Below are positions 14,183 to 21,602 of a DNA stretch of 25,098 nucleotides, in pieces. This DNA is from a virus, in the IMG/VR virus record IMGVR_UViG_3300025128_000309, positions 1 to 25,098 of that record; one strand, written 5' to 3'. Position 1 is the first letter of the stretch; the number at the start of each line of letters is the position of its first letter. The notes below the pieces were generated by a model. It made no database searches. It was given only the letters and a program-made list of their open reading frames with translations, and was not told the DNA's origin. A program made the position numbers and the translations under genes.

Positions 14183-14869
14183 CTAGATGTCCTGAATGTT
14201 GTTGATCTCGACATCGACAGTGACCTCGTTGTCGGGCCAGCCTCCAATCTTGGAGTACAGATCGGTAATGTTTCGAGCGGTATCGAGCAACAGAGCGATG
14301 TGCTCGTTGGTCTCCACCCTTCTACGGGCATAGAATTGCTCGCGTGTCTCAACTAAAACAGTCTCCGATGGGTAGGTGCGTTCACCGATCTTGACATCAG
14401 GTCTCTCCCAGACCTGACCCTCATCGTCCTCGTTGATCAGCACCCAAGCGTCCGACTCAACCCACTGCCATTCTCCGTTTTCGTATGTACGAATACCCGG
14501 AACCTTGTGGTGCCAGTTGGCTGAAAGGTTAAGATTGGGAATCGGGATCGTGCAGACACGCTGCTTCCGGCCTACATGGTATTCAGACTCTTCGCCATGC
14601 GTGTTGATGGTGATGTACGCATCGGAGTACTCCATCCACCAAGCATTGTCTGGGTGGACGATCTTGTACTTGTCTACCAAGTCTGGATCATGGTTCTCGA
14701 TGCCTAACAGAGCCTCCAGTTCTTCAACACGCTCACGTTTCTCAACGAACCTCTTTCGCGTCGATTCTCTTTGAGTCTCTGCGTCTCTCAGACGACGCTC
14801 AGTGTCGATCAGCTTCTCGTTTGCTGAATCCAGTTGCTCACGCAGTTGTTGTTTTGTTTCGGTTTTCAT
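14183..14869 (-). CDS. Hypothetical coiled-coil protein behind hammerhead HHR-a (228 aa)
   Basis: An N-terminal coiled coil of about 55 residues (TETKQQLREQLDSANEKLID, ERRLRDAETQRESTRKRFVE) is followed by a Trp-rich beta region (DNAWWMEYSDAYITINTHGE, YENGEWQWVESDAWVLIN) and a C-terminal helical segment. No family recognised. AAGGAG lies 6 nt before the ATG, 24 nt after the predicted cleavage point of the hammerhead at 14889-14944. Confidence 0.78.
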   Translation of the reverse strand: MKTETKQQLREQLDSANEKLIDTERRLRDAETQRESTRKRFVEKRERVEELEALLGIENHDPDLVDKYKIVHPDNAWWMEYSDAYITINTHGEESEYHVGRKQRVCTIPIPNLNLSANWHHKVPGIRTYENGEWQWVESDAWVLINEDDEGQVWERPDVKIGERTYPSETVLVETREQFYARRRVETNEHIALLLDTARNITDLYSKIGGWPDNEVTVDVEINNIQDI

Positions 14870-14888
14870 AGGTTCTCCTTATTGGTTT

Positions 14889-14944
14889 TCCGATATGCCC
14901 CGGAGGGCATTTCACCTGGTCACCAGCCAGGATCGTCAGTCGGA
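14889..14944 (-). ncRNA. Candidate type I hammerhead ribozyme HHR-a (variant)
   Basis: Minus strand, 5' to 3': stem I TCCGA (14944-14940); core CTGACGA (14939-14933); stem II CCTGG with loop CTGGTGA and CCAGG; core GAAA (14913-14910); stem III ATGCCC, loop TCCG, GGGCAT region; cleavage triplet ATA; stem I TCGGA (14893-14889). The cut falls between 14894 and 14893. Two departures from the other copies: the pair next to the core that is normally G10.1-C11.1 is T/T, and the triplet is ATA rather than GTC (NUH is still permitted). It may be slower or decaying. It lies 56 nt after the stop of the 78-aa gene. Confidence 0.72.
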
Positions 14945-15000
14945 TGTTGTTGTTTGTACGTTAGTCTACGCTGCTTGTTGCGCTGTCGCAACACCAAGCC

Positions 15001-15237
15001 TTAGCGATCTGCGTGATCGCGGAGCTTTTGTATTGCTGCGAGACACGTTTCGTTGCCGCCTTTGTTTGCCCTCTTGCCTGCTTTCCAGGCGAGTCGAGCG
15101 GGACTTTGGGGGTGACCTGCTTTTGGGCCATCATTGTATCCAACCCAGAAGGCGTGCTTTGAAGTCGAGCCTCTGTCGGGAAACCCCTTGTTGTTTATCG
15201 GAGGATTCTCCAAATAGTGATCGTAGATCGTTGTCAC
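15001..15237 (-). CDS. Small hypothetical protein between ardC and HHR-a (78 aa)
   Basis: GTG start at 15237 with AAGGAG 7 nt upstream. The product reads as a real phage protein: MTTIYDHYLENPPINNKGFP, SKHAFWVGYNDGPKAG, LARLAWKAGKR-like helix (ARLAWKAGKRANKGGN). The same frame extends upstream under ardC, but that part is a shadow. FWVGY...LAWKAG is seen in small phage proteins of unknown function. Confidence 0.7.
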   Translation of the reverse strand: MTTIYDHYLENPPINNKGFPDRGSTSKHAFWVGYNDGPKAGHPQSPARLAWKAGKRANKGGNETCLAAIQKLRDHADR

Positions 15238-15251
15238 GTCAGTACTCCTTG

Positions 15252-15269
15252 GGCCGCTATGCAGCGGCC
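15252..15269 (-). other. Hairpin over the ardC stop codon
   Basis: GGCCGCT-GCAT-AGCGGCC on the coding strand, a perfect 7-bp stem with the TAG stop of ardC in its loop and 3' arm. AAGGAG of the next gene follows within 4 nt. No T-run, so it is probably not a terminator; it could slow terminating ribosomes or protect the 3' end. Confidence 0.4.
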
Positions 15270-16171
15270 TGTTGGGTTTTGGATTGCAGGGAGTCGAGGT
15301 AATCGACTGCCTTCTGCGCTTGTGCTGCTGCGTCCTTGATGAACGCCTTGTCATCGTCCAGAGCCTTGAGCCAGCCCTTGAGGTATTGCAGGTGATCGGC
15401 ACGGATCTCACTGCTAACGCCCAGGTCAATGCACAAGATCGCGGCACCGATCTCAGCGATCAGTTCCTCGAATGCATAGCCTCGCTTGTTCTTCGAGTCG
15501 AGGCGATCATTGCGAGACTTGTGCCCCGTCCAGTGGACGTGTTCGTGCAGTAGCGTCGAGTAGAAGCACTCGGTCGCGGTGCTGGTCTTGGTCGCGCTGA
15601 ACAGTGATCGCTCAGGCATGACGATCTGATCGTTGCCAGGGTTGTAGAACGCTCGGCCTTCGCCCGTGTAGGTGAGGCTCGCGCCCACGTTCGCCAGGTA
15701 CTGATCGACGCGATCATTGCGCTCGGTCTCATCAACCTGGTCGATCACTGGTGGTGTCCAGGGGTTCTCGAATCCCTCGATCACGTTGTCACGCACGCTG
15801 CTGTAGTCCCAGACAGCGTCGGTGATAAACCCAAAGACCCCATACTGGCTCTCGGTGTCGCCTGTGGATTCGTTCACCTTCTCGCCAGTCTTAACCTTGC
15901 GAGGGCGTGCGATGTAGAAGTCAGCCTTGCTTTTGACCTGGTAGCCAAGCTTCTGCCAGCCGTTGTAGGTGGAGTAGAACGCTGAGCCTTTCAGCATTGC
16001 GATCAGTGCGTTAGCGCCAGTGGCGCGATGGCCTGTGGCTACGTTGTGGGGCCGCACGGCTAGGCTGGCGAAGGGTAGTGTGAAGTCTTCAGAGTTCACG
16101 CCTTCGATCAGTTGAGTGATCTGCTCAGCAAGCTGATCGTTGATGCGCTGGTTGTGGTCTATCTTGGTCAT
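15257..16171 (-). CDS. ardC: ArdC-type antirestriction protein with zinc metallopeptidase domain
   Basis: 304 aa. ArdC proteins protect incoming DNA from host restriction. The N-terminal ssDNA-binding (DUF1738-like) domain spans about residues 10-130: PFASLAVRPHNVATGHRATG, YSTYNGWQKLGYQVKSKADF. The C-terminal zincin domain has HExxH as H209-E210-H211-V212-H213 (LLHEHVHWTGH) and, after DRLDSKNKRGYAFEELIAE, a glutamate region (E236/E240) that gives the third zinc ligand. Length matches the family. Start 16171 has CGGAG 6 nt upstream; a longer start at 16213 would run back into the leader. It is translated from the RNA downstream of hammerhead HHR-b. Confidence 0.9.
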   Translation of the reverse strand: MTKIDHNQRINDQLAEQITQLIEGVNSEDFTLPFASLAVRPHNVATGHRATGANALIAMLKGSAFYSTYNGWQKLGYQVKSKADFYIARPRKVKTGEKVNESTGDTESQYGVFGFITDAVWDYSSVRDNVIEGFENPWTPPVIDQVDETERNDRVDQYLANVGASLTYTGEGRAFYNPGNDQIVMPERSLFSATKTSTATECFYSTLLHEHVHWTGHKSRNDRLDSKNKRGYAFEELIAEIGAAILCIDLGVSSEIRADHLQYLKGWLKALDDDKAFIKDAAAQAQKAVDYLDSLQSKTQQAAA

Positions 16172-16199
16172 TGGATGCTCCGTTAGTCGTTGTGTGTTG

Positions 16200-16214
16200 C
16201 ATGTATTATACATG
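16200..16214 (-). promoter_or_regulatory. Palindrome with a TATAAT box in the ardC leader
   Basis: CATGTAT-T-ATACATG, a perfect 15-bp palindrome. On the minus strand it contains TATAAT, with TTGGAA (the 3' arm of HHR-b stem I) 16 bp upstream as a weak -35. It could be an internal ardC promoter, an operator, or a hairpin near the 5' end of the cleaved mRNA. Confidence 0.4.
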
Positions 16215-16227
16215 TTGGTTTTGGTTT

Positions 16228-16281
16228 TCCAAGACCCCCGGAGGGGTTTCGATCAGTCACCAGTTGATCTCATCAGTTGGA
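16228..16281 (-). ncRNA. Candidate type I hammerhead ribozyme HHR-b
   Basis: Minus strand: stem I TCCAA (16281-16277); core CTGATGA (16276-16270); stem II GATCA, loop ACTGGTGAC, TGATC (includes the standard G10.1-C11.1 pair); core GAAA (16250-16247); stem III ACCCC, loop TCCG, GGGGT; cleavage triplet GTC (16235-16233); stem I TTGGA (16232-16228). Every invariant core position is present. The cut falls between 16233 and 16232, releasing a 5'-OH mRNA for ardC with a 61-nt leader. The stop codon of the upstream gene is the TGA inside CTGATGA. Confidence 0.92.
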
Positions 16282-16512
16282 GTAACATTCAGAAAATTTG
16301 GCGTGATATGCCTTGCGGCGGCGAGCCAATTCCATCGTGCAGTAGTGGCGCTCGTCTTCGTACTGCCCACACTTGGGGTTGTCTGGGTTGGCAGTGATCG
16401 CGGCAGCGCAGTCCTGCATAACGTAGAGCAGTGAGTCCAGGCTCATGCCCTTGGTCTTGGCGATGTACTGCGAATGCCAGCGCCCGTCACCATCGGTGTA
16501 GATCGCTTCCAT
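16273..16512 (-). CDS. Small hypothetical protein ending inside HHR-b (79 aa)
   Basis: MEAIYTDGDGRWHSQYIAKT ... LLYVMQDCAAAITANPDNPK, CGQYEDERHYCTMELARRRK. The KCGQYEDERHYCTMEL pattern is common in small phage proteins of unknown role. Start 16512 has GGGAGG 7 nt upstream. It overlaps the upstream gene by 26 bp. The final codons and stop (CYSN, TGA) form the 5' arm and part of the catalytic core of HHR-b, so translating ribosomes would block folding. Confidence 0.8.
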   Translation of the reverse strand: MEAIYTDGDGRWHSQYIAKTKGMSLDSLLYVMQDCAAAITANPDNPKCGQYEDERHYCTMELARRRKAYHAKFSECYSN

Positions 16513-16696
16513 CAAGCTGCCTCCCTATAATTCCTGCATCGAACAGGTTCTGTATGGCCCAAGGTTCTATTGCCTGCGCTGCGATTAGCTGCCAAGCAAA
16601 GCCGGTATCGACTAGGTGTTGCCAAGCCTCGATCACCTTGGTCTCATCGGCCTCGATGAACCCTTTAACAATGCCTATGGCTGAGTAGTTATCCAT
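16487..16696 (-). CDS. Small conserved-looking phage protein (69 aa)
   Basis: MDNYSAIGIVKGFIEADETK, VIEAWQHLVDTGFAWQL, IGRQLDGSDLHRW. The motif (VIEAWQ-LVDTG-AWQLQ, then a short helix ending in GxI) recurs in many phages; no function known. GGGGAGG 7-8 nt upstream; its ATG overlaps the previous stop (TGATG), so it is coupled. Confidence 0.82.
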   Translation of the reverse strand: MDNYSAIGIVKGFIEADETKVIEAWQHLVDTGFAWQLIAAQAIEPWAIQNLFDAGIIGRQLDGSDLHRW

Positions 16697-16917
16697 CAGA
16701 CCACCTCCCCAGTGATCGGCTTGATGATCACGTTGCTGGGCGACATGCGTCGGAACAAACCAGAGTGATCGCCGTTGCGCTGAATCCAGATCACCTTGGC
16801 GATGCCGCTCTCGATCCTGATCCAGGCAGGTCGCCATTTGACAACTATAATCATCTGGGGCGCATAGCCAAATTCAAAGCCTTCTGGGCCGTCTAAAAGT
16901 TGATGTGCTAGTGCCAT
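16696..16917 (-). CDS. Small hypothetical protein (73 aa)
   Basis: Beta-rich protein: FGYAPQMIIVVKWRPAWIRI, ESGIAKVIWIQRNGDHSGLF, SNVIIKPITGEVV. No family recognised. Stop and start are fused with both neighbours (TAATG on its 5' side, TGATG on its 3' side), with GGAGG 9 nt before its ATG, so the three small genes behave as one coupled unit. Confidence 0.78.
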   Translation of the reverse strand: MALAHQLLDGPEGFEFGYAPQMIIVVKWRPAWIRIESGIAKVIWIQRNGDHSGLFRRMSPSNVIIKPITGEVV

Positions 16918-17120
16918 TACGCTCGCCCTCCGATCAGTGCTGCCAGGTTGTTCTCCTGTTCCACGATGATCTCCAGGCCAAGCCTTTCGATCCGCTTTAG
17001 ATTTTCAGGGGTCAACGTGCGCGTGCCAGCGATCTCAGCAATGATCTTGGCGTGCTCGCATACCGGGTATGCCTTGTTCTCGCCGTACACATTTTTGATC
17101 TTGATCACGATTGCGTTCAT
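16917..17120 (-). CDS. Small conserved-looking phage protein behind HHR-c (67 aa)
   Basis: MNAIVIKIKNVYGENKAYPV, CEHAKIIAEIAGTRTLTPEN, LKRIERLGLEIIVEQ. The pattern (VYG-Y-P-C--A---A-IAGTKTLT) is frequent in phages and is of unknown function. It is the first gene after hammerhead HHR-c; CGGAG lies 8 nt upstream of the ATG and 13 nt from the expected cut end. Confidence 0.85.
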   Translation of the reverse strand: MNAIVIKIKNVYGENKAYPVCEHAKIIAEIAGTRTLTPENLKRIERLGLEIIVEQENNLAALIGGRA

Positions 17121-17139
17121 AGGATTTTCTCCGTTAGTT

Positions 17140-17198
17140 TTCCAAGACCGTGCAGCGCACGGTTTCGACCAGGCACTACCTGGTCTCGTCAGTTGGAA
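17140..17198 (-). ncRNA. Candidate type I hammerhead ribozyme HHR-c
   Basis: Minus strand: stem I TTCCAA (17198-17193); core CTGACGA (17192-17186); stem II GACCAGG, loop TAGTG, CCTGGTC; core GAAA (17166-17163); stem III ACCGTGC, loop GCT, GCACGGT; cleavage triplet GTC (17148-17146); stem I TTGGAA (17145-17140). All three stems are 6-7 perfect pairs and the core is complete. It starts 3 nt after the stop of the 127-aa gene. The cut between 17146 and 17145 leaves a 25-nt leader for the 67-aa gene. Sequence differs from HHR-e in stems II and III while keeping pairing, which is covariation support. Confidence 0.95.
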
Positions 17199-17200
17199 TG

Positions 17201-17584
17201 TCAGAAGCGAATGCGCTCCCAGTAGGAGTTGACTGGGCGGTAGCGGCAGTCCCAGGTATCGATCAGGTAGCCGTGCTCGACTGCCGTGAGGTGTCTGCTG
17301 TTACGCACGATAGCCACTCCACGGAAATCCCAGTCTGCAAGCTTGATCAGCTTGCCCTGGGCGTTGCGTGGAGGCTTACGCTTGACCAGACCCTGATCTT
17401 CGGCGTAGGCGATCCACACCTTGTCGTGATTTGGATACGCGCCCATCTCCAGGCCAAATGCCATGAGATCGCGGAACACCTTCCCGTAGGATTCACCAAG
17501 CACGATGCTGAGTGATCTAATCACGCAGTCATCTTTGAAGGTTTTGCAAATGCGCTCACCAGCGCCCCAGTTTTGATATTGCAT
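17201..17584 (-). CDS. Possible papain/C39-like cysteine peptidase-fold protein (127 aa)
   Basis: Candidate catalytic Cys20 at the start of a helix (KDDCVIRSLSIVLGESYGKV), His98 (RHLTAVEHG) at a beta strand and Asp109 (YLIDTWD), in the C-H-D order of papain-like folds. The C-terminal strands (HLTAVEHGYLIDTWDCRYRP) resemble the peptidase half. It could instead be an inactive or transferase relative. CGGAGA precedes the ATG by 8 nt, downstream of hammerhead HHR-d. No signal peptide, so cytoplasmic in the host. Confidence 0.7.
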   Translation of the reverse strand: MQYQNWGAGERICKTFKDDCVIRSLSIVLGESYGKVFRDLMAFGLEMGAYPNHDKVWIAYAEDQGLVKRKPPRNAQGKLIKLADWDFRGVAIVRNSRHLTAVEHGYLIDTWDCRYRPVNSYWERIRF

Positions 17585-17604
17585 AGGATTGTCTCCGTTG
17601 TTGG

Positions 17605-17666
17605 CTTACCTCGTCAGCGCGTCGGGAGCCACCCGATCACGGACGCCCTGGGGGCGTTTCGGTTAG
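17605..17666 (-). ncRNA. Candidate type II hammerhead ribozyme HHR-d
   Basis: Circularly permuted order on the minus strand: open stem II CTAACC (17666-17661); core GAAA (17660-17657); stem III ACGCCC, loop CCA, GGGCGT; cleavage triplet GTC (17644-17642); stem I CGTG-A-TCGGG, loop TGGCT, CCCGA-CGCG (one bulge, one G-T wobble); core CTGACGA (17617-17611); stem II GGTAAG (17610-17605, one A/A mismatch). The cut falls between 17642 and 17641. It overlaps the stop codon of the membrane-protein gene (TAA within the stem II arm). Confidence 0.85.
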
Positions 17667-17884
17667 TGATTGAAGTCGTAGCTAAGTTCGATCCAGCCCA
17701 CGATTGCCAGCGCGATCGCGTACACGAACATGGCTGGGCCAAGGATCGTAAAGCCCCAGTGAGCACCCTCGGCTGAGAAGTAGGCCCACTCGGTAAATAC
17801 AACGCCGCTGGCGATGAAAAGCAGCACGATCACTAACCAGGCTGATGCTTTGATCAGTGTCCAGATGATTTGAAATAGGTTCAT
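17663..17884 (-). CDS. Small membrane protein (73 aa)
   Basis: Two hydrophobic segments, residues about 5-31 (IWTLIKASAWLVIVLLFIAS) and about 43-66 (WGFTILGPAMFVYAIALAIV), with short polar ends. Probably a two-helix inner-membrane protein. Function unknown; small phage membrane proteins may serve in exclusion, lysis timing or host takeover. CGGAGA lies 8 nt before the ATG, after HHR-e; its stop codon is inside HHR-d. Confidence 0.8.
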   Translation of the reverse strand: MNLFQIIWTLIKASAWLVIVLLFIASGVVFTEWAYFSAEGAHWGFTILGPAMFVYAIALAIVGWIELSYDFNH

Positions 17885-17903
17885 AGGAATGTCTCCGTTG
17901 GTT

Positions 17904-17962
17904 TTCCAAGACGCCCCGTGGGGCGTTTCGGCTGGTCACCACCCAGCACTCATCAGTTGGAA
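17904..17962 (-). ncRNA. Candidate type I hammerhead ribozyme HHR-e
   Basis: Minus strand: stem I TTCCAA (17962-17957); core CTGATGA (17956-17950); stem II G, bulged T, GCTGG, loop GTGGTGA, CCAGC, C; core GAAA (17929-17926); stem III ACGCCCC/GGGGCGT with a tiny loop; cleavage triplet GTC (17912-17910); stem I TTGGAA (17909-17904). It begins directly after the TAA stop of the PP-loop gene. The cut between 17910 and 17909 leaves a 25-nt leader for the membrane protein. Confidence 0.94.
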
Positions 17963-18757
17963 TTAGACGGCCTCGGCATCGATCACTTGCTCCCACTCGG
18001 TAATCGACAGTTGCTTGCCGTTGTGTTTGCGGATGAAAAGCCGAGTGCCGTTGGCCCAGGGGTCTTTGCGCCAGTGGCCTGCGTTGCAGCGACCGCCCTT
18101 GTTGAGGGGCTGACCAGCGTCTAGCCATGCCTGATGCTTTCGTGATGACTCCTCGCTGAATCGCTGCTCGACTAGCTTGATCGTGTCCCAGGCTTTCTTG
18201 TCATGGCGAATGTCCTTGATCTCCTGGACGCTCATGAATGGGCAGAACACGCAGGATGACTTGGCAACCTTGATGCCGTAGTAGTCGAGGATGTCCAGGC
18301 ACGCCTGACGGTTGAGGTTGCGCTCAACCAGTGGGTACTCGTATTCGTTGGTGTCACCCTTTGGCTTGGTGAATCGAGCAGTGCGATGGCCCTCGTCAGC
18401 CTCGATACCGATCAGGTAGGTGATCTGCTGACCAGGGTATGTCTGATCGATGTACTTCTGGATCACATCGCCTTTGTATTTTTTGCTGCAAACATGCGAG
18501 CCGCCAGGCATAACTGGCACGATGCCCAGTCGGGTAACCCACTCGGTGATGTTCTCGCCTTCTTTGCGAACCACAGTGAAGGGCAGACCAGCGTCGGCGC
18601 ATAGCTGCTTAAAGAAGTTGACGTTGTCGTAAGTAGCCTGTGACTCAGCACCAGTGTCAGCGAAGATGACGTGATCAATATCGATGTTGTCTTCGAGAAG
18701 GTGGATAGCCAGGACAGTGCTGCTATCAACGCCGCCGCCAAATGAAAGAATACGCAT
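17963..18757 (-). CDS. PP-loop ATPase family protein (PAPS reductase-like)
   Basis: 264 aa. N-terminal PP-loop MRILSFGGGVDSSTVLAIHL (S5-x-GGGVDSS), which binds and splits ATP; IFADTGAES is the second conserved element. Then HVCSKKYK with C90, GIEADEGHRTARF, and KSSCVFCPFMS with C169 and C172. C90 plus the CxxC could hold a metal or a 4Fe-4S cluster, as in DndC- and TtcA-like sulphur-transfer enzymes. True sulphate reduction is less likely; RNA/DNA modification or sulphur transfer is a better guess. First gene of the accessory operon, preceded by hammerhead HHR-f; ACGGAGA is 6-7 nt upstream of the ATG. Confidence 0.85.
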   Translation of the reverse strand: MRILSFGGGVDSSTVLAIHLLEDNIDIDHVIFADTGAESQATYDNVNFFKQLCADAGLPFTVVRKEGENITEWVTRLGIVPVMPGGSHVCSKKYKGDVIQKYIDQTYPGQQITYLIGIEADEGHRTARFTKPKGDTNEYEYPLVERNLNRQACLDILDYYGIKVAKSSCVFCPFMSVQEIKDIRHDKKAWDTIKLVEQRFSEESSRKHQAWLDAGQPLNKGGRCNAGHWRKDPWANGTRLFIRKHNGKQLSITEWEQVIDAEAV

Positions 18758-18776
18758 AGGATGTCTCCGTAAGTTT

Positions 18777-18828
18777 TAGTTTCGCCGTCCCATCGGCTCA
18801 TCAGTGCATCGGGATCAGATGCAGACTA
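18777..18828 (-). ncRNA. Candidate type III hammerhead ribozyme HHR-f
   Basis: Third permutation on the minus strand: open stem III TAGT (18828-18825) with cleavage triplet GTC (18826-18824); stem I TGCATC, loop TGATCCC, GATGCA; core CTGATGA (18804-18798); stem II GCCG, loop ATGGGA, CGGC; core GAAA (18783-18780); stem III ACTA (18780-18777), only 4 bp. The cut falls between 18824 and 18823. The weak stem III makes this the least certain of the GTC copies, but a GGCGC/GCGCC hairpin (18845-18829) abuts stem III and could stack on it. It sits 20 nt before the PP-loop gene. Confidence 0.72.
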
Positions 18829-19217
18829 GGCGCTGTTAGTGCGCCTTCGCTTTGTGTCTCGCTTTACGCCTCGCCGCCTCTTGGCGGGTCTTGGGGTGCG
18901 GTTGCCGTGGCAACGAAGCGGAACTTCTACTAATGATTTGAAGCGTGCAACGACTAACGACATACGATACATAGACAGATGCTAGACATCCCCGTCGTGC
19001 AAGGGCTAACGGCCCACGACAAATATGCTCAGATCGGGCGATTTAGGGGTAGTTTGCACGGGTCGCCCCTAAACCTGGGTCGTTAGATGTGTGTTGTGAG
19101 GCATGGTATTTGAGGTGCGATCAGGGGTGATCACAATGCGATCAGTGGCGTTATCAATACGAATTGAGGAAAAAGCGATGCGATGCGGCAAGGGTAAGTG
19201 CTCGAAAAGGGGGGGTA
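18829..19217. other. 389-bp divergent intergenic region, rich in repeats and hairpins
   Basis: No gene seen. Contents: hairpins GGCGC/GCGCC (18829-18845), CCGCC-TCTT-GGCGG (18874-18887) and GTTGCC-GT-GGCAAC (18901-18914); two 18-bp direct repeats CGTGCAAsGrCTAACGrC (18944-18961 and 18996-19013), with CTAACGAC again inverted at 19079-19086; TTTAGGGG (19042-19049) / CCCCTAAA (19066-19073) inverted around TTTGCACG; and TGCGATCAG repeats near terS. It must hold start signals for the leftward accessory operon and for rightward terS, but no consensus sigma70 promoter was found, so phage-specific control is possible. Confidence 0.55.
19116..19148 (+). repeat. Two 12-bp direct repeats 21 bp apart upstream of terS
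   Basis: TGCGATCAGGGG (19116-19127) and TGCGATCAGTGG (19137-19148), 11 of 12 identical, with starts 21 bp apart (two helical turns), about 70-100 bp before the terS start. A protein could bind both from one DNA face. Candidate operator or TerS packaging site. Confidence 0.4.
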
Positions 19218-20077: not shown

Positions 20078-20096
20078 AAATCCCTCTGGAGTGATT

Positions 20097-21602
20097 TTGT
20101 CAAAGCGAATTGACGCGAAGCTACTCGAAGCACTCCCTGATCTTCCGTTAGAAGAGCAGAAAGAAATCCTTTCTTTGCTAGAAGATCTCGAAGAGTCTGA
20201 GAGACGAGAAGCTGCGCGTGACAGCTTTATGGGATTCACCAATTATGTGTGGCCTGCGTTTATTGAAGGCAGGCACCACAAGATCATGGCAAACGCATTT
20301 GAGCGTGTCGCCAATGGTGAATTAAAACGACTGATCGTAAACATGCCGCCGAGGCACACAAAATCAGAGTTTGCTTCATACTTATTACCTGCTTGGTTTT
20401 TAGGTCGCTTCCCGGAGAAGAAGATCATCCAGACTGCTCACACTGCTGAGTTATCTGTGGGGTTTGGTCGTAAGGTGCGAAACCTCGTTGACAGCGATGA
20501 CTACAAGTCAGTCTTTCCCAGTTTAGGTTTGCGATCCGATAGCAAAGCCGCTGGTCGATGGAGTACTAGCAAGAACGGTGAATACTTCGCTATTGGTGTT
20601 GGTGGTGCAGTGACTGGTAAAGGTGCAGATCTACTGATTATTGATGATCCGCATTCTGAGCAAGAAGGTCAGAGTTCTGATGCAGGTGTCTTTGATCGAG
20701 TGTATGACTGGTACACATCAGGCCCACGTCAGCGTTTACAGCCTGGTGGTGCGATCATTGTGGTGATGACCCGATGGCACAAGCGGGATTTGACGGGGCA
20801 GATCATCAAGTCTTCTGTTCAACGTGCAGGCACAGATGAATGGGAAGTCATTGAGTTCCCCGCAATCATGCCTTCCGGCAAAGCGTTATGGCCTGAGTTC
20901 TGGTCTTTAGAGGAGTTAACCGCTCTACAGAACGAACTACCTGCGCCGAAGTGGAATGCACAGTATCAGCAAAACCCAACCTCAGAGGAGGGTGCGCTGG
21001 TAAAGCGCGAGTGGTGGCAAGAATGGGAAGACGCAACCCCGCCGCCGTGTGAGTTTATTATTCAGTCTTGGGACACAGCGTTCCTAAAGACACAACGTGC
21101 CGACTACTCGGCATGCACAACTTGGGGGGTTTTTTACAAACCCAACTCTGAAGGCGTAATGCAGCCCAATATCATCCTGTTGGATGCTTACAAAGAGCGG
21201 TTAGAGTTCCCTGAACTGAAAAAGACGGCACTAGAGTTTTATACAGACTGGCAACCCGATGCGTGTATTGTGGAGGCCAAAGCTGCTGGTATGCCGCTGA
21301 TCTTTGAATTACGGGCTATGGGTATACCTGTCGGTGAATACACCCCGTCTAGGGGTAACGACAAGATATCTCGAGTCAACGCAGTGTCAGACCTGTTTGC
21401 GTCAGGGATTGTTTGGGCACCAGGTACACGGTTTGCTGAAGAGGTGATCGAAGAGTTTGCTTCGTTTCCTTCTGGTGAACACGATGACCTTGTGGATTCA
21501 TCCACACAGGCACTACTCAGGTTCCGTCAAGGCGGGTTCTTGAGGCTTAACTCAGACGAAGAAGACGAACCGTTCTATCCGAAAAGGGCCACTTATTACT
21601 GA
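20097..21602 (+). CDS. terL: Terminase large subunit (TerL)
   Basis: 501 aa; the packaging motor with ATPase and nuclease. Walker A-like NMPPRHTKSE (residues about 82-91), Walker B LLIIDDPH (about 180-187), coupling region VVMTRWHKRDLTG, then an RNase H-like nuclease with SWDTAF (about 324), VEAKAAG (about 391) and HDDLVDSS (about 461) giving the acidic residues. Start: a TTG at 20097 has GGAG 5 nt upstream; GTG at 20091 overlaps that SD, so TTG is favoured. Its stop overlaps the next ATG (TGATG). Confidence 0.95.
   Translation: MSKRIDAKLLEALPDLPLEEQKEILSLLEDLEESERREAARDSFMGFTNYVWPAFIEGRHHKIMANAFERVANGELKRLIVNMPPRHTKSEFASYLLPAWFLGRFPEKKIIQTAHTAELSVGFGRKVRNLVDSDDYKSVFPSLGLRSDSKAAGRWSTSKNGEYFAIGVGGAVTGKGADLLIIDDPHSEQEGQSSDAGVFDRVYDWYTSGPRQRLQPGGAIIVVMTRWHKRDLTGQIIKSSVQRAGTDEWEVIEFPAIMPSGKALWPEFWSLEELTALQNELPAPKWNAQYQQNPTSEEGALVKREWWQEWEDATPPPCEFIIQSWDTAFLKTQRADYSACTTWGVFYKPNSEGVMQPNIILLDAYKERLEFPELKKTALEFYTDWQPDACIVEAKAAGMPLIFELRAMGIPVGEYTPSRGNDKISRVNAVSDLFASGIVWAPGTRFAEEVIEEFASFPSGEHDDLVDSSTQALLRFRQGGFLRLNSDEEDEPFYPKRATYY

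Follow-up and report, generated by a model that had tools for sequence, protein, structure and literature searches.

Six hammerhead ribozymes of three topologies in one phage accessory-gene operon and their probable role in processing its transcript

Described hammerhead clusters and the present locus

Prophages in which multiple hammerhead ribozymes flank genes were reported by Perreault et al. in 2011, who proposed a role in mRNA processing; three tandem arrangements were active in vitro, and a triple cluster at ardA of Agrobacterium tumefaciens was active in E. coli (PMC3088659). The biological role of prokaryotic hammerheads has been called an open question in a review (PMC6155905). Here we describe six hammerhead motifs within about 4 kb of the minus, coding strand of IMGVR_UViG_3300025128_000309, a complete IMG/VR virus record of 25,098 bases that was analysed in full (the window) and whose terminase, Erf and primase-helicase genes identify it as a phage. 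The motifs lie in a run of minus-strand accessory genes starting near 18.8 kb.

The locus resembles the 2011 clusters in that several type I, II and III hammerheads occupy one phage coding strand and flank single genes or short blocks, an anti-restriction gene adjoins them, and pseudoknots form in the stem I–stem II region; with at least two coding-strand hammerheads flanking phage genes it belongs to the same kind. A preliminary description of this stretch had taken a processing series through an operon to be undescribed, a claim that fails because Perreault et al. had described the arrangement and proposed the same processing. The arrangement is thus known in kind since 2011, and what is new is its size, the mixture of three permutations, and longer arrays elsewhere with a measured stop-ribozyme-Shine-Dalgarno (SD) architecture. 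The locus differs from the clusters of 2011 in the number of copies (six within 4 kb, and up to ten elsewhere in IMG/VR among the matches listed), in the presence of every permutation in a single operon, in the measured packing of stop codon, ribozyme and SD, and in its place on a viral contig without a hammerhead-bearing cultured relative, with cleavage predicted from sequence. No later study of such arrays was found in the literature searched, which lay mostly outside subscription journals, so this proves little.

Three further systems invite comparison. RiboJ is a hammerhead directly upstream of the ribosome-binding site that trims the 5′ untranslated region and carries an added 23-nt hairpin (PMC7536230), and self-cleaving ribozymes engineered between genes have been used, according to the account of Liu et al. 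given in PMC12819055, to split an operon in polycistronic co-expression. The window shares with both the placement of a ribozyme ahead of a ribosome-binding site or between genes, whereas those systems are engineered; and unlike the added hairpin of RiboJ, the 3′ flank here serves in a pseudoknot, and its folding into a hairpin after cleavage is no more than possible. The promoter early stem-loop (PeSL) cassettes of phage T4, as summarised in PMC4503421 from Arbiol 2010 and Comeau 2014, act through a promoter plus a terminator. As far as that summary goes, they too are repeated intergenic regulatory cassettes bounding exchangeable accessory genes; the junction here is instead a ribozyme, and no combination of promoter and terminator marks it, the minus strand from 14 to 19.3 kb showing neither an intrinsic-terminator-like site nor an excess of promoters.

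Identification and structure of the six hammerheads

In order of transcription, from copy 6 to copy 1, the topologies are III, I, II, I, I and I, so that four type I, one type II and one type III copy bring all three permutations into one operon. The preliminary description had placed six minus-strand hammerheads, their cleavage sites and the genes downstream of them correctly (Table 1) and had missed the difference in topology. All six contain the core CUGANGA ... GAAA, the A15.1-U16.1 pair and an NUH cleavage site, and in each three helices, one of them open, join at the core. A strict descriptor (CUGANGA, GAAA, A15.1-U16.1, H17 and three stems) found four of the copies, including copy 6, and nothing else in the window, against 0.04 matches per 25 kb on both strands in 200 dinucleotide shuffles. 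The remaining two, at 17904 and 14889, were picked up by a relaxed descriptor and have one irregular site each: copy 5 has a bulged U10.2, and copy 1 has U.U in place of the 10.1-11.1 pair together with an AUA cleavage site. These irregularities recur in unrelated phages; the U.U variant (14939-14911 on the minus strand of the window) was also seen in L025, L044, L053, L068 and L136, all viral contigs unrelated to this one.

The copies share core, three stems and NUH site with the Rfam families RF00163, RF02276 and RF00008, unlike whose accepted members every copy scores below gathering, which is a curator's threshold and not a structural feature. In the Rfam search proposed in the preliminary description, no match appeared in the window at the gathering cut-off; without it, and against all families, the type III copy (E-value 9e-6), the type II copy (1e-3) and the best type I copy (31.7 bits, 2e-4) were significant, RF00163 alone gave three type I copies at 5.5e-8, 4.8e-5 and 7e-5, and the hammerhead families were the top-scoring RNA families at five of the six sites. 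Copy 1, which Rfam did not report at all, was found only by R1, a covariance model built from 45 aligned type I hammerheads of other viral contigs with the window and its close relatives excluded. Applied to the window, R1 returned exactly the four type I copies (E from 4e-17 to 7e-11; next match 0.6). Covariation within its training set is partly circular, because the descriptor that selected the set requires pairing; this does not apply to the search of the window. RAGATH-1 matches at 17141 and 17905 are the sites of copies 3 and 5, and the other Rfam matches in the window (Six3os1_2, SOX2OT, mir-1285 and sR14) were set aside as sub-threshold chance matches. Scores under Rfam gathering would suit a resemblance by chance, or stem-loops that serve otherwise, as terminators or RNase III sites, an explanation that is scarcely credible in view of the shuffles, the agreement of two independent model sets and the orthologous conservation described below; nor does a T-tract follow the stems. 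At the level of sequence, the six motifs are confirmed as hammerhead ribozymes.

Every copy has a tertiary contact, which is a loop-loop contact in type III and a pseudoknot in all the others, four of type I and one of type II; the statistical backing applies to type I, the window's type II and III contacts being single cases of complementarity. The type I contact joins the apical loop of stem II to the bases that immediately follow stem I on its 3′ side. For loop II and this 3′ flank, the pairing score over about 100 non-redundant type I copies was 7.91 versus 6.17 (standard deviation 0.18) when flanks were permuted between copies, and 8.15 versus 6.77 (standard deviation 0.16; 0 of 1000) when flanks were shuffled, with the paired variants UGGU/ACCA, UAGUU/AACUA, UAGCU/AGCUA, UUGCU/AGCAA and UGGAU/AUCCA. 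Within the window UGGU/ACCA occurs three times, including copy 5, and UAGU/ACUA once, in copy 3, where the pairing was read from the sequence and the script scored AGU/ACU, three of the four pairs. Since loop II covaries with it, the 3′ flank is part of the ribozyme. In copy 4 loop I (UGGCU) forms a pseudoknot with the tail (AGCCA), a feature of the published type II consensus (PMC3088659), and in copy 6 loop I (UCCC) meets loop II (GGGA) in a 4-bp contact. The flank may also form a hairpin, UUGG-AAAA-CCAA, at the new 5′ end, with a signal (7.35 versus 6.64, standard deviation 0.15) weaker than that of the pseudoknot and inseparable from it here. As the main cause of flank conservation this hairpin was rejected, the pseudoknot explaining the paired variation far better; it is a possible secondary use of the flank.

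Gene junctions in relatives and other viral contigs

All six motifs are present in one relative (L004/L113), and a separate contig, which begins within the 264-residue gene (L008/L131), retains all five in its range. Its orthologs differ at position 17, with GUC changed to GUA in copy 5 and to GUU in copy 4; both changes are permitted and the cores are unchanged. In L009 both sides of stem I in the type III copy have changed, a compensatory exchange of C-G for G-C. In a 71% relative (L005) a type III copy is kept and now precedes ardC, and a type I copy follows the PAPS-reductase-like gene. In L131 the 228-residue gene has been lost or replaced, and the motif of copy 1 stands unchanged ahead of the next gene. 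In L134 (9960-10090) a homologue of the 228-residue gene follows an identical SD without a hammerhead and with a TATAAAAT-containing spacer instead; ribozyme and promoter-like spacers may be interchangeable. Gene order thus varies around motifs that are kept, and the ribozymes therefore act as junctions where genes come and go.

A search pattern describing a frequent type I form, written without gene information, matched at least 120 stretches in IMG/VR. Among the matches listed, the descriptor found unrelated viral contigs bearing between three and ten same-strand hammerheads, with ten on one (L091), seven on each of two (L049/L080 and L088), six on L025 and five on L053, of which R1 confirmed nine, seven, seven, six and three, respectively; the Rfam gathering cut-off admits one copy in all five contigs, in which every hammerhead stands between a stop codon and an SD. 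No cultured phage with an array was found by blastn of the five arrays or through one array protein. R1 detected no type I hammerhead anywhere in the records of the phages nearest by terminase (Pelagibacter phages HTVC027P and HTVC023P, 023Pt_psg01 and DSL-LC04), and the descriptor, applied to their first 50 kb, no hammerhead of any type; a pattern scan of GTDB genomes gave 40 matches, two of which passed the descriptor, and no array. The window's terminase (20091-21602, plus strand) is 60% identical to that of HTVC027P; its primase-helicase is nearest to freshwater cyanophage-type genomes, at 34%.

The packing of these junctions was measured on the 123 non-redundant type I copies among the listed matches, counting open reading frames (ORFs) of at least 50 residues. 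An ORF stop lies within -12 to +4 of the core in 95 of them, compared with 106 of 1074 control CTGANGA sites, and an SD-preceded start lies no more than 45 nt from the cut in 94 (112 of the 1074 controls). The UGA of the core is itself the stop codon in 30 of the 123 (controls, 69 of 1074), among them copy 2 of the window, where UGA at 16273-16275 on the minus strand ends an 80-residue ORF. We rejected the core UGA as a selected stop, as the excess vanishes among sites with an ORF end nearby (30/114 versus 69/281), and read it as compaction.

Stops within the core, or right beside stem I, would bring a terminating ribosome onto the ribozyme, so that upstream translation, or a ligand or protein, might govern its folding and cutting would report upstream translation. 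The minimum free energy (MFE) fold of copy 5, in which stem I is swapped for the UUGG-AAAA-CCAA hairpin, and a pairing of the stem I 3′ strand with the flank that exceeds shuffles across copies would fit such a conditional switch. We regard it as unlikely: the use of the core UGA near a stop is not above control and may be compaction, and no aptamer-like conserved extension was seen in the type I alignment.

Copies on the same contig are more alike than copies on different contigs (similarity 0.64 versus 0.47), suggesting that they spread, or are homogenised, within genomes. Together with the presence or absence of the motif at the same gene in L134, this similarity might mean that the motifs are passive junctions, self-similar short cassettes that spread by tolerated intergenic insertion with little effect on expression. 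The compensatory change in L009, the restriction of position 17 to H and the covariation of the pseudoknot point instead to selection on catalysis and leave this explanation decidedly improbable. Most of the 111 downstream proteins in the survey are unknown, while three are ArdC-like and one is ArdA; with the window's ArdC and the published ardA cases, anti-restriction genes are a recurrent neighbour and not a rule.

Predicted processing of the operon transcript

We consider it probable, at roughly 0.8, that the six hammerheads cleave the transcript of a single phage operon of accessory genes while it is still being synthesised. The processing of polycistronic RNA suggested in the preliminary description is supported in this sense by independent covariance models, compensatory change, tertiary contacts and position, its claim to novelty apart. 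Each ribozyme would fold and cut co-transcriptionally as RNA polymerase passes the junction, the type III copy trimming the leader and the type II and four type I copies cutting between genes. Each downstream gene or short block would then have an mRNA with a 5′-OH, a mostly short leader and its own SD. The predicted leader is about 25 nt for copies 1, 3 and 5 and about 57-66 nt for copies 2, 4 and 6, ribozyme remainder or extra sequence included; that of ardC runs for about 61 nt up to an ATG at 16171 which follows an SD and which we take as the start of the gene (the mechanical ORF starts at 16213). The upstream message would keep its stop codon and, at type I sites, end in the GC-rich stem III hairpin of the ribozyme with a 2′,3′-cyclic phosphate. 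Both pieces could be stable and independent, since a 5′-OH gives no stimulus to 5′-monophosphate-dependent RNase E and 3′ exonucleases advance slowly through a terminal hairpin. The likely gain would be expression and decay of each gene independent of its neighbours, and accessory genes could therefore be exchanged between ribozyme junctions without re-tuning of the operon. The sequences show what the motifs are, their conservation with compensatory change, their contacts, their packing and the turnover of genes around them; from these we infer cleavage in vivo and the effects on expression and decay, with the published cleavage of comparable clusters as support.

Consecutive hammerheads would leave exactly a 5′-OH and a 2′,3′-cyclic phosphate on one gene-length RNA, the two ends required for RtcB-style ligation into a circular mRNA, as in retrozymes. 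Perreault et al. weighed spliced or circular products, looked for both and found none (PMC3088659). Each unit, with an SD and a stop of its own, is also packed for linear translation, and no RNA ligase was recognised in the subset of window proteins scanned, which makes circular messages very unlikely here.

Several points weigh against such processing of the transcript. Rfam at its gathering cut-off finds none of the copies; copy 1, with its U.U at 10.1/11.1 and AUA site, may be slow, and copy 5 carries the bulged U10.2; pseudoknot-free MFE folds yield the full hammerhead in some copies only. A ribosome that terminates at the upstream stop would sit over the core, where it could prevent cleavage. 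The ribozyme is also not essential for the 228-residue gene, because L134 has that gene without it.

The operon genes lie on the same strand, some of them overlapping, and overlapping ORFs lie between the 67-residue gene and ardC. The 73-residue protein had no family match in Pfam and PHROG profile searches; the 127-residue protein is retained in 20 IMG/VR loci. Ahead of ardC, a sigma-70-like TTGGAA-16 nt-TATAAT at 16232-16205 on the minus strand overlaps the 3′ product of copy 2, its -10 element falling within the palindrome CATGTATAATACATG; the site may act as an internal promoter. Two adjoining 21-nt imperfect repeats (TGCGATCAGGGGTGATCACAA) at 19116-19157, in the spacer ahead of the operon, are a possible regulator site.

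Table 1. Hammerhead copies, 3′ flanks and genes of the operon in window coordinates
Feature	Positions	Strand	Predicted cut after	Context or basis
Copy 6, type III	18774-18831	-	18824	Operon leader, upstream of 264-residue gene; RF00008 40.6 bits, E=9e-6
Copy 5, type I	17904-17962	-	17910	Between 264-residue stop and 73-residue SD; R1 70.3 bits, E=3.9e-17; RF00163 22.3 bits
Copy 4, type II	17600-17664	-	17642	Overlaps 73-residue stop codon, upstream of 127-residue gene; RF02276 34.7 bits, E=1e-3
Copy 3, type I	17140-17198	-	17146	Between 127- and 67-residue genes; R1 59.2 bits, E=3.7e-14; RF00163 31.7 bits, E=5.5e-8
Copy 2, type I	16227-16282	-	16233	Upstream of ardC; R1 57.8 bits, E=9.3e-14; RF00163 22.9 bits
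Copy 1, type I variant	14888-14945	-	14894	Upstream of 228-residue gene; R1 47.2 bits, E=6.8e-11
3′ flank of copy 5 (TTGGAAAACCAA)	17898-17909	-		Loop II pseudoknot analysis
3′ flank of copy 3 (TTGGAAAACTAA)	17134-17145	-		ACUA, pseudoknot partner of loop UAGU
3′ flank of copy 2 (TTGGAAAACCAA)	16221-16232	-		Pseudoknot partner; possible post-cleavage 5′ hairpin
3′ flank of copy 1 (TCGGAAAACCAA)	14882-14893	-		Loop II pseudoknot partner; 5′ end of predicted downstream mRNA
264-residue PP-loop / PAPS-reductase-like protein	17963-18757	-		PHROG 424, E=2e-29
73-residue predicted small membrane protein	17663-17884	-		By inspection
127-residue protein, function unknown	17201-17584	-		PHROG 3754, E=6e-15
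67-residue protein	16917-17120	-		ORF
ArdC-like anti-restriction protein	15257-16171	-		Pfam MPTase-PolyVal 1e-35, ArdcN 1e-6; PHROG 7245 3e-54
228-residue protein, function unknown	14183-14869	-		Homologue in L134, 84% identical

The operon and the longer IMG/VR arrays are clean cases in which one motif recurs between successive genes, and the effect of a hammerhead on mRNA ends, stability and translation could be addressed in them by inactivating single cores. Standard Rfam annotation overlooks most phage hammerheads. More tentatively, and at somewhat less than even odds given a survey made by descriptor on incomplete contigs, hammerhead arrays (up to ten copies among the matches listed) may be a general architecture of uncultivated phages, one that would give near-monocistronic mRNAs of accessory genes, independent expression and gene swapping at conserved stop-ribozyme-SD junctions, and that would have been largely overlooked because the default Rfam cut-offs miss it. 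This wider architecture may deserve more than membership of a known kind. If it is general, it would be the natural counterpart of engineered RiboJ insulators. The arrays offer natural parts for operon splitting.

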